A stretch of DNA of 64,000 nucleotides from Mitsuaria chitosanitabida ATCC BAA-476 = NBRC 102408 (GTDB lineage: Bacteria; Pseudomonadota; Gammaproteobacteria; Burkholderiales; Burkholderiaceae_C), in contig NZ_BCYP01000022.1 in assembly GCF_001598255.1 (NCBI RefSeq), positions 1 to 64,000 on the forward strand, written 5' to 3'. The translations under genes were made by a program, and so were the position numbers. Positions within the stretch are counted from its first letter, which is position 1; every line of letters begins with the position of its first letter. Below are positions 46,422 to 50,504 of the stretch, piece by piece. A model generated the notes under the pieces. It had not been told where the DNA came from and did not search any database. It saw nothing but the letters and a program-made list of their open reading frames with translations.

Positions 46422-47276
46422 TCAGGCGGACTGCTGCTCCAGCAGGTAGTTGGCGTCGTCGTACTGGCCCAGCGTGTCGACCAGGATCGGCAGGCATTCG
46501 GCCAGCTTGTCGTGCAGCGTGAAGGGCGGGTTCACCACGAACATGCCCGAGCCCATCATCCCGAAGCCGCGCTCGTCGGCCTGGGTGACGGTGAGCCGCA
46601 CGTGCAGCCAGCCCTTCTTGGCGACCGGGTCGGCGGCGGACTTCAGGCGCTGCACCAGCTGGGCCGACTCGATGGTCTGCAGCTGCGGGTACCAGATCGC
46701 GAAGGTGCCGTCGGCGAAGCGCTGCAGGCCCTCGCGCAGCGCGGCCACGACCTTGCCGTAGTCGGCCTTGATCTCGTAGGGCGGGTCGATCAGCACCACG
46801 CCGCGGCGCGACGGGGGCGGCAGCTCGGCCTTCAGCGAGGCGAAGCCGTCCTGCATCATGACCTGCGTGTTGGGCCGGTCCTCCAGGTAGCTGGCGAGGA
46901 TGCGGTGGTCGGTGGGATGCAGCTCGTAGCAGCGCAGGCGGTCCTGGTCGCGCATCAGGAAGCGCGAGATCGCCGGGGAGCCGGGGTACTGCTCGAGCTT
47001 CTTGCCCGGGTTGAAGTCGTGCACCAGCTGGACGTACTGCTGGAGCGGCTCCGGCAGGTCGGTGCGGGCATACAGGGCGGCGATGCCGCCGGCGTGCTCG
47101 GCGTTCTTCTGGGCATAGCGGCCGTCCAGGGCGTAGCCGCCGGCGCCGGCATGGGTGTCCACCACGGTGTAGGCCTTGTCCTTCTCGCCCATGTAGCGGA
47201 GGACCTCGGCCAGCACCAGGTGTTTGAGCACGTCGGCATGGTTGCCGGCGTGGAAAGCGTGTCGGTAAGCGAGCAT
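46422..47276 (-). CDS. rlmJ: 23S rRNA (adenine(2030)-N6)-methyltransferase
   Basis: RlmJ methylates A2030 of 23S rRNA. The 284-residue protein opens 'MLAYRHAFHAGNHADVLKHLVL', as in E. coli RlmJ, which sets the start at the ATG at 47276 rather than the GTG three codons upstream. SAM-dependent methyltransferase motifs 'VVDTHAGAGGYAL' and 'GVVLIDPPYEIKADY' (about 164) are present. It ends where composition changes: the sequence from about 47350 onward is less GC-rich. Confidence 0.95.
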   Translation of the reverse strand: MLAYRHAFHAGNHADVLKHLVLAEVLRYMGEKDKAYTVVDTHAGAGGYALDGRYAQKNAEHAGGIAALYARTDLPEPLQQYVQLVHDFNPGKKLEQYPGSPAISRFLMRDQDRLRCYELHPTDHRILASYLEDRPNTQVMMQDGFASLKAELPPPSRRGVVLIDPPYEIKADYGKVVAALREGLQRFADGTFAIWYPQLQTIESAQLVQRLKSAADPVAKKGWLHVRLTVTQADERGFGMMGSGMFVVNPPFTLHDKLAECLPILVDTLGQYDDANYLLEQQSA

Positions 47277-47485
47277 GTCCGGCACTGTACCCGCGATCCC
47301 GGCGGCATCGCCGCCGCGAACACGATCGCAGCGTCCGCTCAGCGACTGAAACCGGCGAGTCGCGATCGATCAATGTTCCCGCGCGGCCCTGTTGGAAACG
47401 TCCCGAAAGAGATGGCTGCATCCCAAGGGCTGCGGATGACCTCTTCCGGGCCGGAGCAGGATCATGCCTTTCGAGGAGATGGCGC

Positions 47486-49099
47486 ATGAACACGAAGCTT
47501 CGTCAGTCCGACCTGCCAGCCGCTGTGCCGGTGCAAGACTTGTTTGGAGACATGTCCTCGACGGACATGATCGCGTCGACCCACACGCAGGAGCTCGTGA
47601 TTGCGTTGTGCGGGCCGATGGGATCGCCTCTCCACGAGGTCGCGTCGAAGCTCGAACTGATGCTCAAGACCACGTTCGGCTACGACTGCTCGATTCTTCG
47701 GCTCAGCGACTACATCCAGGATCACGCCAAGCGCGCGGGCCGCCCGCTGTCGACGAAGCCGGCGCCACGTCGCAACGACCTTATCAGTCTGGGCGATGAG
47801 ATGAGGGGTGTGTACGGGGCAAGCGTTCTGGCGGAGCTTGCCGTGAACGAGATACGACTCGGTAGAGAGTTGCATCACAAGGACAAGGCGACAGGGCAGT
47901 TTGCTCCGCGGCGCATGTGTCACATCATCGATTCGATTAAGAACCAGCAAGAGTTGGAGCTGCTGCGCACCGTCTATCGAGAGGTGCTGTACGTGGTCGG
48001 AGTCTTCTCCCCGCTTCCGAATCGTGAAGAGGCGCTGCGAAATCAGGGGCTGGACAACGGCGACATCGCCAAGCTGATGGACAGGGATTCCGGGGAGGAG
48101 TTAGCCGCGGGGCAGACCGTCGACGAGACGTTCCCGCAGTGCGACTTCTTTCTTCGTATGGATGCCAATACCGATACCCAGTTGCGCGGTCGAGTGGAGC
48201 GATTCCTTCACCTGATACTGGGGACACAGGTCATCACGCCGACGCGAGCCGAGACTGCGATGTACGCGGCCGCATCCGCAGCGGGGAACTCGGCCTGCCT
48301 TTCGAGGCAGGTGGGAGCCGCGGTGACCGACGAGGATGGCGAGGTGCTCGCCATCGGATGGAACGACGTGCCTCGGCCGTTCGGCGACCTCTACGTGACC
48401 GACCTCGCATCCGATCCGACTGGGGACAAGGACAAGCGTTGCTGGAACTACGGGGGAAAGTGCCACAACGACGAGGAGAAGAGCATCCTTGCTGCGCACG
48501 TCATTGAAGCCCTCGCGCCGTACATCCACGAGAACAAGCGAGCAGATGCCGCGCAGGCGGTATCGAAGAACAAGAAGCTGCGCGGGTTGATTGAGTTCTC
48601 CCGCGCCATTCATGCCGAGATGCATGCGATCCTCACCGCGTTGCGGCAGAAGGGGGATCGTGTGCGGGGAGGCAAGATCTTCGTCACGACCTACCCGTGC
48701 CACTCCTGCGCGAGACACATCGTTGCGGCGGGCATCAAGGAGGTCTACTTCATCGAGCCCTACAAGAAGAGCTTGGCCACCAAGCTGCATGGGGACGCAA
48801 TGACTGAAAGCGAGCAGACGTCCGACAAGGTGCGTTTGATTCCCTATGACGGGGTCGCGCCGACGCGGTACCTCAGCCTGTTCAAGATGAAGCCGAACTC
48901 TCGCAAGAAGGATGGCCGAGTCGTGCGCATTGCTCCTGACATCGCCACGCCGAAGCTTGAGAAGAGTCTTGAAGCCTTGCCAGCTCTGGAAGGGCTAGTC
49001 ATAGAATCGCTCCGTCGCCGAAGTCTCATCGAGACTCATCAACCCCTCGCTCCCTTGCACGCCGTAGAACATGAAGCACCCGGAACAGATCCCGTTTGA
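47486..49099 (+). CDS. Anti-phage dCTP deaminase (AvcD/DcdV type)
   Basis: A 537-residue two-domain protein. The N-terminal half (about 35-230) is a P-loop kinase-like domain, with a degenerate phosphate loop 'GPMGSP' (43-48) that lacks the usual Lys. The C-terminal half is a zinc cytidine/deoxycytidylate deaminase: His376-Ala-Glu378 ('HAEMHA') and Pro404-Cys405-x2-Cys408. This architecture is that of bacterial dCTP/dCMP deaminases that deplete deoxycytidine nucleotides when phage infection halts host transcription. A GAGGAG site precedes the ATG. Codons are markedly more AT-rich than neighbours, which points to acquisition. A short frame overlaps its 3' end. Confidence 0.88.
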   Translation: MNTKLRQSDLPAAVPVQDLFGDMSSTDMIASTHTQELVIALCGPMGSPLHEVASKLELMLKTTFGYDCSILRLSDYIQDHAKRAGRPLSTKPAPRRNDLISLGDEMRGVYGASVLAELAVNEIRLGRELHHKDKATGQFAPRRMCHIIDSIKNQQELELLRTVYREVLYVVGVFSPLPNREEALRNQGLDNGDIAKLMDRDSGEELAAGQTVDETFPQCDFFLRMDANTDTQLRGRVERFLHLILGTQVITPTRAETAMYAAASAAGNSACLSRQVGAAVTDEDGEVLAIGWNDVPRPFGDLYVTDLASDPTGDKDKRCWNYGGKCHNDEEKSILAAHVIEALAPYIHENKRADAAQAVSKNKKLRGLIEFSRAIHAEMHAILTALRQKGDRVRGGKIFVTTYPCHSCARHIVAAGIKEVYFIEPYKKSLATKLHGDAMTESEQTSDKVRLIPYDGVAPTRYLSLFKMKPNSRKKDGRVVRIAPDIATPKLEKSLEALPALEGLVIESLRRRSLIETHQPLAPLHAVEHEAPGTDPV

Positions 49100-49295
49100 C
49101 TTCGCGGTTTTGGAGGCGGTGCCTTGCGAGCCTCCGCGGGCGCAAGTTCTTCAACTCGCCGACGCTCGAGCGCGCAGGGAGGCCCAAGTGATTTCGGCAG
49201 CGTACGACGCCATCTTCGAGAGCATCCGCCACATCGACATCACCCGCGGCCGCCGCATGGCCGAGGCCCGCGAGCAGGTCACCCACACGCGCTGA
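49071..49295 (+). CDS. Small protein overlapping the dCTP deaminase gene
   Basis: A 74-residue frame that starts inside the last 29 bases of the deaminase gene, in another frame. The peptide is 'MKHPEQIPFDFAVLEAVPCEPPRAQ', then a predicted helix ('QLADARARREAQVISAAYDAIFESIRHI') and a basic end. No Shine-Dalgarno is seen, but stop-to-start overlap allows coupling. Composition begins as the island's and moves to the GC-rich host style. I do not recognise a family. It could be a real partner or the remnant of an older gene at the junction. Confidence 0.5.
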   Translation: MKHPEQIPFDFAVLEAVPCEPPRAQVLQLADARARREAQVISAAYDAIFESIRHIDITRGRRMAEAREQVTHTR

Positions 49296-49298
49296 TCC

Positions 49299-50504
49299 TC
49301 ACACCTGGAACGCCCCCGGCGAATACGCCGTCCCCGCCGGCACTTCCTTGAGCGCGCAGGGGTGCTGGTACTGCATCGCCGGCCGCAGCGATTGCCCGTC
49401 CACCTCACCCGGATCCACCGCCCGACCGATCAGCGGCGAGCCCGGCCGCAGGCGGAAGTCGTAGCGGTCCGCGTCGACGAAGGCGTCCAGGCCGACGAAG
49501 TAGTTGTGGTGCTGCTCCCGGTCCGGCCCGGCGGGCAGCTCCTGCTTGCCGTGCAGCAGGTTGTCGATCAGCCGCAGCTTCTGCGCCGGCTGGGCCATCC
49601 GCAGGTAGACGCCCCCCTGCGGCCGCCGGTCCACCAGCGTGTTGTTGATCAGGTGCAGCTCGTTGCGCGGGTGGCTCAGTCCCTCGCTGCCGTAGGCGAT
49701 CAGGTGGTAGTTCTCGGTCGACGGGCTTTGCTGGATCACGTTGCCCATCACCAGCGCCAGGCCGCCGTTGGGGAACTCCAGCTCGAAGCTGGCATGGCCG
49801 GTCTCGTCGGTGAGACGGTTGTAGAAGAGGTGGTTCACCGCCGCGCGGGTCTTGAGCAGGTGGCCGCTCGCGCCATGGTGGAAATAGCTGCCCAGCACGA
49901 CCAGCTTGCCGATCGCGCCGACGTAGCAGTTGTGCGTGTGACCGTCGCCCGGCGCGATCGCGCCGAAGTCGCAGGACTCGAGGCGCAGTTCGATCGAGGC
50001 GTCGTTCGCGGCCAGCAGGCCGTTCTCGTTGTCCTGGAAACGGCAGTCGCGCAGCGTCAGCGATCCCTGCTCCAGGCGGATGCCGGCACCGTTGCGGTCC
50101 GGCACCTTCGCGCCGATGAAGTCGAAGCCCTCGATCGTCATCCGCTTGCCGCGGGTGACGAAGATGCCCTTGCCCTGCGCATGCGCGCCGTTGGCGGGGA
50201 GGCGGACCCGGCCGCCCACCGCCTTCAGGGTCAGGTCGTCCTGCGACCAGGCGGCCACGTCGCCGGGGTACTCGCCGGCCTGGACCTCGATCGTCGTGCC
50301 CGGCTTGGCCTGGGCCGCGGCCGCGGCCAGCGTCTTGACGGGGTGATCGCGGCCGACCTTCAGCACGGGCCTGGACCCACCCTGCGCCCGCGCCGCCGGC
50401 AGCCACAGGGGAGACGCGGTCGGCAGCGTCAGCGCGGTGCCGGCCAGCAGCAGGCGGCGTCGGTGGCGGGAGAGCAGGGCCTGATCGAGCGCGGAACCGG
50501 ACAT
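49299..50504 (-). CDS. Exported right-handed beta-helix protein
   Basis: A 401-residue exported protein with a Tat-like signal ('SRHRRRLLLAGTALTLPTA', cut about 'ARAQGG'). The body is a right-handed parallel beta-helix with PbH1-like turns: 'GKGIFVTRGKRMTIEGFDFIGA', 'GAGIRLEQGSLTLRDCRFQDNENGL', 'IELRLESCDFGAIA'. Such proteins include pectate lyases and polysaccharide-binding proteins, but no catalytic signature is clear. The ATG at 50504 is chosen over an earlier frame. The next 287 bases up to the Old Yellow Enzyme gene contain no gene. Confidence 0.85.
   Translation of the reverse strand: MSGSALDQALLSRHRRRLLLAGTALTLPTASPLWLPAARAQGGSRPVLKVGRDHPVKTLAAAAAQAKPGTTIEVQAGEYPGDVAAWSQDDLTLKAVGGRVRLPANGAHAQGKGIFVTRGKRMTIEGFDFIGAKVPDRNGAGIRLEQGSLTLRDCRFQDNENGLLAANDASIELRLESCDFGAIAPGDGHTHNCYVGAIGKLVVLGSYFHHGASGHLLKTRAAVNHLFYNRLTDETGHASFELEFPNGGLALVMGNVIQQSPSTENYHLIAYGSEGLSHPRNELHLINNTLVDRRPQGGVYLRMAQPAQKLRLIDNLLHGKQELPAGPDREQHHNYFVGLDAFVDADRYDFRLRPGSPLIGRAVDPGEVDGQSLRPAMQYQHPCALKEVPAGTAYSPGAFQV

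Follow-up and report, generated by a model that had tools for sequence, protein, structure and literature searches.

In Vibrio, the deoxycytidine triphosphate (dCTP) deaminase AvcD is part of AvcID, a type III toxin–antitoxin system of phage defence. The AvcI RNA holds the enzyme in check and is itself lost by decay once phage have shut off transcription in the host, according to the available portions of the reports (PMC10511110, PMC12409362). Two further kinds of described system concern the sliding clamp of replication. The regulators Hda and HdaA are tied to the clamp through an N-terminal QLSLPL or QFKLPL peptide, as given in the accessible parts of their descriptions (PMC12309361, PMC3836487). 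A pneumococcal toxin/antitoxin system targets the sliding clamp and is alike in being a toxin/antitoxin system with a connection to it; its title and the opening of its abstract name no deaminase (PMC12795458). For the AvcD family itself, the literature that was searched, in the portions available, names neither a protein partner nor a link to the clamp, the founding papers of 2022 lying outside that scope.

Here we describe a locus of Mitsuaria chitosanitabida ATCC BAA-476 = NBRC 102408, located in a stretch of 64,000 nucleotides (positions 1 to 64,000 of contig NZ_BCYP01000022.1) that we refer to as the window. A gene for an anti-phage dCTP deaminase of the AvcD/DcdV kind (47486..49099, forward strand, 537 aa) is overlapped at its end by a small gene (49071..49295, forward strand, 74 aa). 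With moderate confidence, we read the pair as a two-gene variant of AvcD/DcdV defence in which the small partner would tie the deaminase to the replication clamp. The locus resembles AvcID of Vibrio, as far as the available text describes the latter, in that the deaminase belongs to the same family by the NF041025 model and combines a kinase-like N-terminal domain with a dCMP-type deaminase domain. It differs in having the overlapping small protein gene downstream, and in that no RNA antitoxin was detected at the window, by a test of low power (PMC10511110, PMC12409362).

The deaminase and its overlapping small gene

An initial annotation, made from the sequence of the window alone, had called the gene at 47486..49099 an AvcD/DcdV-type anti-phage dCTP deaminase, and profile searches agree. 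The predicted protein, which starts with an ATG, scores 462.2 bits over residues 36-470 against NF041025, the NCBI equivalog model of anti-phage dCTP deaminases (cut-off 400), and 532.7 bits against the PADLOC dCTPase model. With a profile built from 28 homologues, the C-terminal half is matched by dCMP deaminases, that of T4 among them, and positions 91-236 by the AdkA-like protein SSO1041 (E = 1.1e-8); thus the two-domain layout proposed at the outset, with a kinase-like N-terminal domain, holds. The N-terminal loop itself is GPMGSP (residues 43-48, 47612..47629, forward strand), with G43 and G46 invariant in the 28 homologues, and not a canonical GxxxxGK[ST]. Also invariant in the alignment are H376, A377 and E378 of the HAE motif (48611..48619, forward strand), which we take to supply a zinc ligand and a proton shuttle, and P404, C405 and C408 of PCHSC (residues 404-408, 48695..48709, forward strand), presumably the zinc-binding Pro-Cys-x-x-Cys; both had been recognized in the initial annotation. 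The profile matches support the assignment of this gene as a new member of a known family. A pattern scan of viral contigs found no relative of the deaminase.

A housekeeping dCMP deaminase with no role in defence would have the Pfam dCMP/cytidine deaminase domain in common with this protein (PF00383, 61.1 bits). Against that explanation stand the kinase-like N-terminal domain, the NF041025 score above its cut-off, the score of only 47.1 bits with the model of the housekeeping enzyme ComEB (cut-off 219.45) and the absence of the gene from this site in 13 of 16 genomes of the genus. We regard it as extremely improbable.

The initial annotation had described an island of one gene. This needs correction, since the interval that it delimited holds a second gene. 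The small frame opens with an ATG at 49071, within the end of the deaminase gene, overlaps the latter by 29 nt, and runs for 74 codons to a stop at 49295. Based on tblastn, a relative of the small protein lies directly 3′ of the deaminase in the congener G007 (58% over 52 residues, E = 1e-13). Weak matches occur at the same place in G004 (E = 0.028) and in a Hydrogenophaga locus (L016, E = 0.28), the latter with the same 29-nt overlap.

Short open reading frames (ORFs) were inspected 3′ of 77 deaminase loci (50 plus 29, with two in common). These are the loci returned by our searches and not a random sample, and the statistics use 75 of them, two truncated loci having been left out. At 60 of the 75 loci, one or more sense ORFs of 40-200 aa begin between −80 and +100 of the deaminase stop. 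A small frame downstream is typical of several deaminase clades, and relatives of the small protein are found directly 3′ of related deaminases in several phyla. Within the deaminase clade of the window the carriers are Hydrogenophaga, Bradyrhizobium (two), an alphaproteobacterium, Pantoea and a flavobacterium, the remainder being genomes from the same family and order as the window.

Ratios of nonsynonymous to synonymous substitution rates (dN/dS; Nei-Gojobori, with significance from a Fisher test on differences) indicate purifying selection on the partner in close pairs. They are 0.28 for L017/L018 (P = 4.6e-4), 0.26 for L060/L074 (P = 2.1e-3) and 0.17 for L080/L081 (P = 8e-8). Between the window and L002 the ratio is 0.19 (P = 1.6e-6), with synonymous sites near saturation. 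The dN of the partner exceeds that of its deaminase in all five pairs for which both were computed.

Searches of Pfam, NCBIfam, PADLOC and PHROGs returned no match to the window's small protein, and tblastn found none among plasmid records. For 20 of its relatives, Pfam, NCBIfam and PADLOC gave scattered, unrelated matches of single members, at E = 0.0098 or weaker. The structure prediction has a mean pLDDT (predicted local distance difference test) of 84, with block means of 65-67 for residues 1-20 and of 80-98 for the ten-residue blocks from residue 21 on. The model suggests a lower-confidence N-terminal tail followed by one long helix (residues 23-73, 49137..49289, forward strand), the first part of which is common to the relatives; little can be concluded from a helix on its own. 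NF041025 and PADLOC dCTPase, the two curated models with a match here, are limited to the deaminase, and there is none for the partner. This, along with the absence of a family matching the small protein, would suit a single-gene deaminase followed by a chance frame. Purifying selection in close pairs, conserved adjacency and the motif enrichment described below all speak against a chance frame, which we consider very unlikely. We are confident that the deaminase and the small gene form a two-gene unit.

A clamp-like motif in the partners

When 21 partners are aligned, only two columns past the start, a Q and an L, are nearly invariant. The alignment program favours such columns, so the motif was tested free of any alignment, as the pattern Q[LIMV]x[LFIM]x[LFIV] or Q[LIMV]x[LM]F. 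Of 84 sense ORFs downstream, 23 have it; shuffling of residues predicts 2.85, and none of 400 shuffles gave more than 7. The antisense ORFs of the same stretches, which served as a control, contain it in 5 of 128 cases (3.11 expected). The background among other ATG ORFs of 40-100 aa is 25 of 1087 at the same loci and 2 of 107 in the window. When the Q is not required, a Q precedes the hydrophobic pattern in 22 of 54 cases, compared with a Q frequency of 5.0% (binomial, P = 4e-15). When the 23 ORFs are sorted by deaminase clade, the clade of the window contributes 16 (of 19), clade 2 three (of 14), clade C three (of 5) and the rest one; among the 23, the occurrence at L066 (residue 54) is probably due to chance. 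Most partners in the clade of the window start with Q-L-x-L/F-x-L/F, which resembles the motif by which proteins bind the sliding clamp (DnaN). We rejected the possibility that the motif is a property of the deaminase itself, as it occurs in 1 of 140 deaminase tails over five clades (0 of 76 in clade 1, clade 2 and clade C, and 1 of 64 in other clades, in clade B).

The consensus for clamp binding is QL[S/D]LF or QxxLF, and the Hda peptide QLSLPL binds tightly, as stated in the accessible part of PMC12309361. The Hda-type motif is QL[SP]LPL, with QFKLPL in Caulobacter, in the accessible part of PMC3836487. Among the partner motifs, QLSLPL of L083 is identical to the tight-binding Hda peptide as there reported (PMC12309361); others are QLSLDL (L017), QLELDF (L060), QLEFPF (L072), QLQLPF (L005) and QLKLNF (L019). 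In the window the candidate motif is QIPFDF (residues 6-11 of the small protein, 49086..49103, forward strand). The partner is thus like Hda and HdaA, as far as these are described in the available text, in having an N-terminal motif of the QLxLxL type; it is unlike them in being short, predicted to be helical, without an AAA+ domain and located beside a deaminase (PMC12309361, PMC3836487). The peptide MKHPEQIPFDFAVLE is a candidate clamp-binding peptide, alongside those of the QLELDF, QLSLPL and QLSLF partners.

The best of four Hda-like matches in the window's own genome (L139 1495-2166) scores 189.2 bits, just below the cut-off of 194.8. This ORF has a TTG start and begins MKQIPLSL, a non-standard clamp motif, and so the QIPFDF of the window resembles the likely clamp peptide of its host. 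The window's motif is partly encoded inside the overlap with the deaminase, where the DNA is constrained by two frames. At L017, L018, L060, L061, L083 and L092 the small ORF starts past the deaminase stop.

A tree of the deaminases was made with 70 rows, five of the 75 loci being omitted (two for short rows and three for over-long ones). The kinds of partner, assigned by eye, cluster with the deaminase clades, with 10 changes for six labels as compared with 41.9 in shuffles. Clade C has an unrelated and larger downstream partner of about 170-200 aa (L118 3191-3709, L119 3102-3641 and the downstream ORFs of L087, L103, L106 and L111), for which Pfam gave no match in the two cases tested. Three of these six have QLSLF, QLSFNL or QLNLPF, and two more have QPLLF or QYALSL under a looser consensus. 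In several of the larger partners the clamp-like motif precedes a conserved domain. A third clade is marked by the kind B partner, of 49-70 aa, often with an ATGA overlap with the deaminase and without the clamp motif (L053, L054, L058, L063, L073, L075, L076, L079, L082, L085, L086, L090 and L120-L122). The presence of the same short motif in partners that are unrelated to each other is the strongest argument for a specific role of the motif.

Several observations weigh against a clamp-tied partner. The enrichment figures overstate the signal, because the pattern was picked after some of the sequences had been viewed and because homologues were counted as independent. The window's own QIPFDF, with an F at position 4, fits the lenient pattern only and not QxxL(x)[LF]. 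The partners at the same site in congeners (L002 and L003) retain only a QL remnant, as does L077, and nothing of the motif is left at L089; the remnants at L002 and L003 imply that the motif is not needed everywhere. It is absent from 11 of the 14 clade 2 loci, including all 10 that have a small ORF upstream. More distant partner pairs have higher dN/dS (0.39 for L001/L003, 0.47 for the window (L001)/L016 with P = 9e-3, and 0.66 for L002/L003), and two pairs of kind B partners give 0.54 and 0.56. The predicted structure of the deaminase is of poor quality, with a mean pLDDT of 46 (6 sequences). With these points taken into account, and judging from sequence comparison, we think that the partner motif probably does bind the clamp.

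The small protein could also be a protein antitoxin that merely blocks the deaminase, its N-terminal Q-L-x-L/F plugging or pairing with the enzyme instead of serving as a clamp ligand. A small, adjacent, overlapping gene that evolves faster than the deaminase has an antitoxin-like layout, the kinds of partner track the deaminase tree, and restraint of AvcD by an inhibitor, the AvcI RNA, is established, according to the available text of PMC10511110. The motif, however, is close to the clamp consensus, with exact QLSLPL and QLSLF, and recurs in the unrelated larger partner; its absence from most clade 2 loci is as expected of a detachable tail. A plain antitoxin is, in our estimate, rather unlikely.

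The upstream region and the history of the site

A gap of 209 nt precedes the deaminase (47277..47485, forward strand). Such a gap, and the establishment of AvcI in the Vibrio systems (available text of PMC10511110), would suit a standard AvcID type III system, in which an upstream AvcI-like RNA would act as the antitoxin, with the small ORF in an accessory role. Rfam has no match in the 46-51 kb region of the window and none that reaches the threshold next to the L002, L003 and L016 deaminases. The 203 nt at 47283-47485 show no unusual folding, with z = −0.82 in a test of low power. An RNA antitoxin has reportedly been found in a system of enterotoxigenic Escherichia coli (ETEC), which we take to be the ETEC p58 locus. 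That locus scores z = +0.40 in the same kind of test, and therefore the test is no evidence that an RNA is absent. Out of 28 upstream stretches that were folded, only that of L096, from a Photobacterium plasmid, falls below −2 (z = −3.26). Upstream of the deaminase, G000 is unlike G004/G007, yet all three retain the small gene. Given this and the lack of an Rfam match, we find a standard AvcID arrangement distinctly improbable at this locus.

Vibrio, Photobacterium and enterobacterial plasmid loci, ETEC p58 included, carry a 56-61 aa ORF immediately 5′ of the deaminase (L117 722-907, L095 124-306, L097 705-887, L093 2709-2894 and L096 2750-2920), which five records annotate as a hypothetical protein. 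It looks protein-coding in the close Klebsiella/E. coli pair L095/L097 (dN/dS 0.29, P = 4.7e-4), and the evidence of selection is weak for L093/L115 (P = 0.034). ORFs within the Vibrio RNA have reportedly been tested. The upstream ORFs sit where the AvcI RNA would be expected, and most end in Trp. The Vibrionaceae plasmid relatives L096 and L115 differ from the window in this way, with the small ORF upstream instead, ending in Trp and without the clamp motif. A C-terminal Trp is common to the upstream ORFs (8 of 10) and the downstream small proteins, and profile cross-matches at E < 0.001, in tiny databases, were obtained for 3 of 10 and 2 of 23. These similarities are no more than suggestive of homology between the upstream small ORFs, from Vibrio, Photobacterium, enterobacteria and others, and the downstream small proteins.

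The cassette is bordered on the left by rlmJ (23S rRNA methyltransferase, PF04378; 46422..47285, reverse strand), whose ORF opens with a GTG at 47285 and whose conserved ATG start is at 47276. On the right, the gene for a right-handed beta-helix protein (PF13229; 49299..50624, reverse strand) converges on the small gene, its stop lying a few bases from the stop at 49295. Both neighbours had been correctly named in the initial annotation, and the compositional anomaly that it had noted is reproduced by computation. The GC content is 0.593-0.632 in 600-bp windows mainly on the deaminase and 0.657-0.765 in the other windows of 40-56 kb. At third codon positions (GC3) the deaminase has 0.762, compared with 0.874-0.965 in nine neighbouring genes. 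A lower GC3 by itself gives no date for the arrival of the cassette.

We compared 60 genomes, including the window's own, of which 16 (own included) belong to the genus. Deaminase matches at E ≤ 0.001 are present in 17 of the 60, with full-length relatives in only five (G000, G004, G007, G010 and G017); in the other 12, 50-66 residues align, with E values of 5.8e-5 and above. A single copy is present in the window's own genome. The rlmJ and beta-helix genes are adjacent and on the same strand in all 16 genomes of the genus. The gap between their matched segments is 1984-2019 bp in three of them (G000, G004 and G007) and 33-240 bp in the other 13, which are empty sites, and a patchy presence of the deaminase is supported.

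The view of the gene as a recent acquisition did not survive this comparison, and a recent insertion was rejected. In the deaminase tree, the three copies at the site (G000, G004 and G007) group as a single clade to the exclusion of the Hydrogenophaga homologue L016 (support 95/92). The deaminases of G007 and G004 are 66% and 62% identical to that of the window, as against 91% and 93% for their rlmJ. In addition, the 3′ end of the small gene persists in the deaminase-free gaps of G009 (L124, E = 4.7e-11) and G002 (L127, E = 7.3e-7), and more weakly in that of G013 (L123, E = 1.0e-4), that is, at two or three of the 13 empty sites; the other ten have no small-gene match, or one at E = 0.029 and worse. 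Such scars at deaminase-free sites point to loss. A caveat is that the shared IDITRGRRMA tail in G002 may be host flank entered by the small frame; the scar of G009 reaches the helical core, which argues against the host-flank reading in that genome. An older cassette, evolving fast and lost on several occasions, accounts for the comparisons better than a new insertion would. Decay of such a defence cassette may be caught in progress at L124 and L127 and, weakly, at L123. One congener, G004, has three anti-phage dCTP deaminases of three different clades (contigs C2, C5 and C27, corresponding to L003, L073 and L089).

A proposed link to the replication clamp

In the mechanism that we propose, the deaminase, when active, would convert dCTP and dCMP to dUTP and dUMP and so starve phage DNA synthesis, as its family membership suggests. 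The small partner would expose a flexible N-terminal tail whose motif is like that of ligands of DnaN (the beta sliding clamp), and its helical C-terminal module may dock on the deaminase. The partner would in this way link the deaminase to the clamp, the activity being held or released by the state of the replication machinery, and would stand in for the AvcI RNA of the Vibrio systems. Whether the partner would restrain the enzyme or deliver it is about evenly balanced.

More broadly, we see an even chance that dedicated adaptor proteins connect a large clade of anti-phage dCTP deaminases to the replication clamp. The adaptors would be unrelated from clade to clade (46-95 aa and predicted to be helical, or about 170-200 aa) and would have only the motif in common. 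Defence would then sense or act at the fork instead of, or besides, answering the shut-off of transcription through an RNA antitoxin.

The control and triggering of nucleotide-depleting deaminases have been worked out for the RNA-controlled form of Vibrio, as far as the available text of the reports describes it. If our reading is correct, a protein partner with a clamp-binding motif would be a second principle of control, and would offer an explanation of how the enzyme could work close to phage forks. The hypothesis would narrow to one short motif and one well-studied binding partner, DnaN, and defence finders that look for the deaminase alone would miss half of the system.

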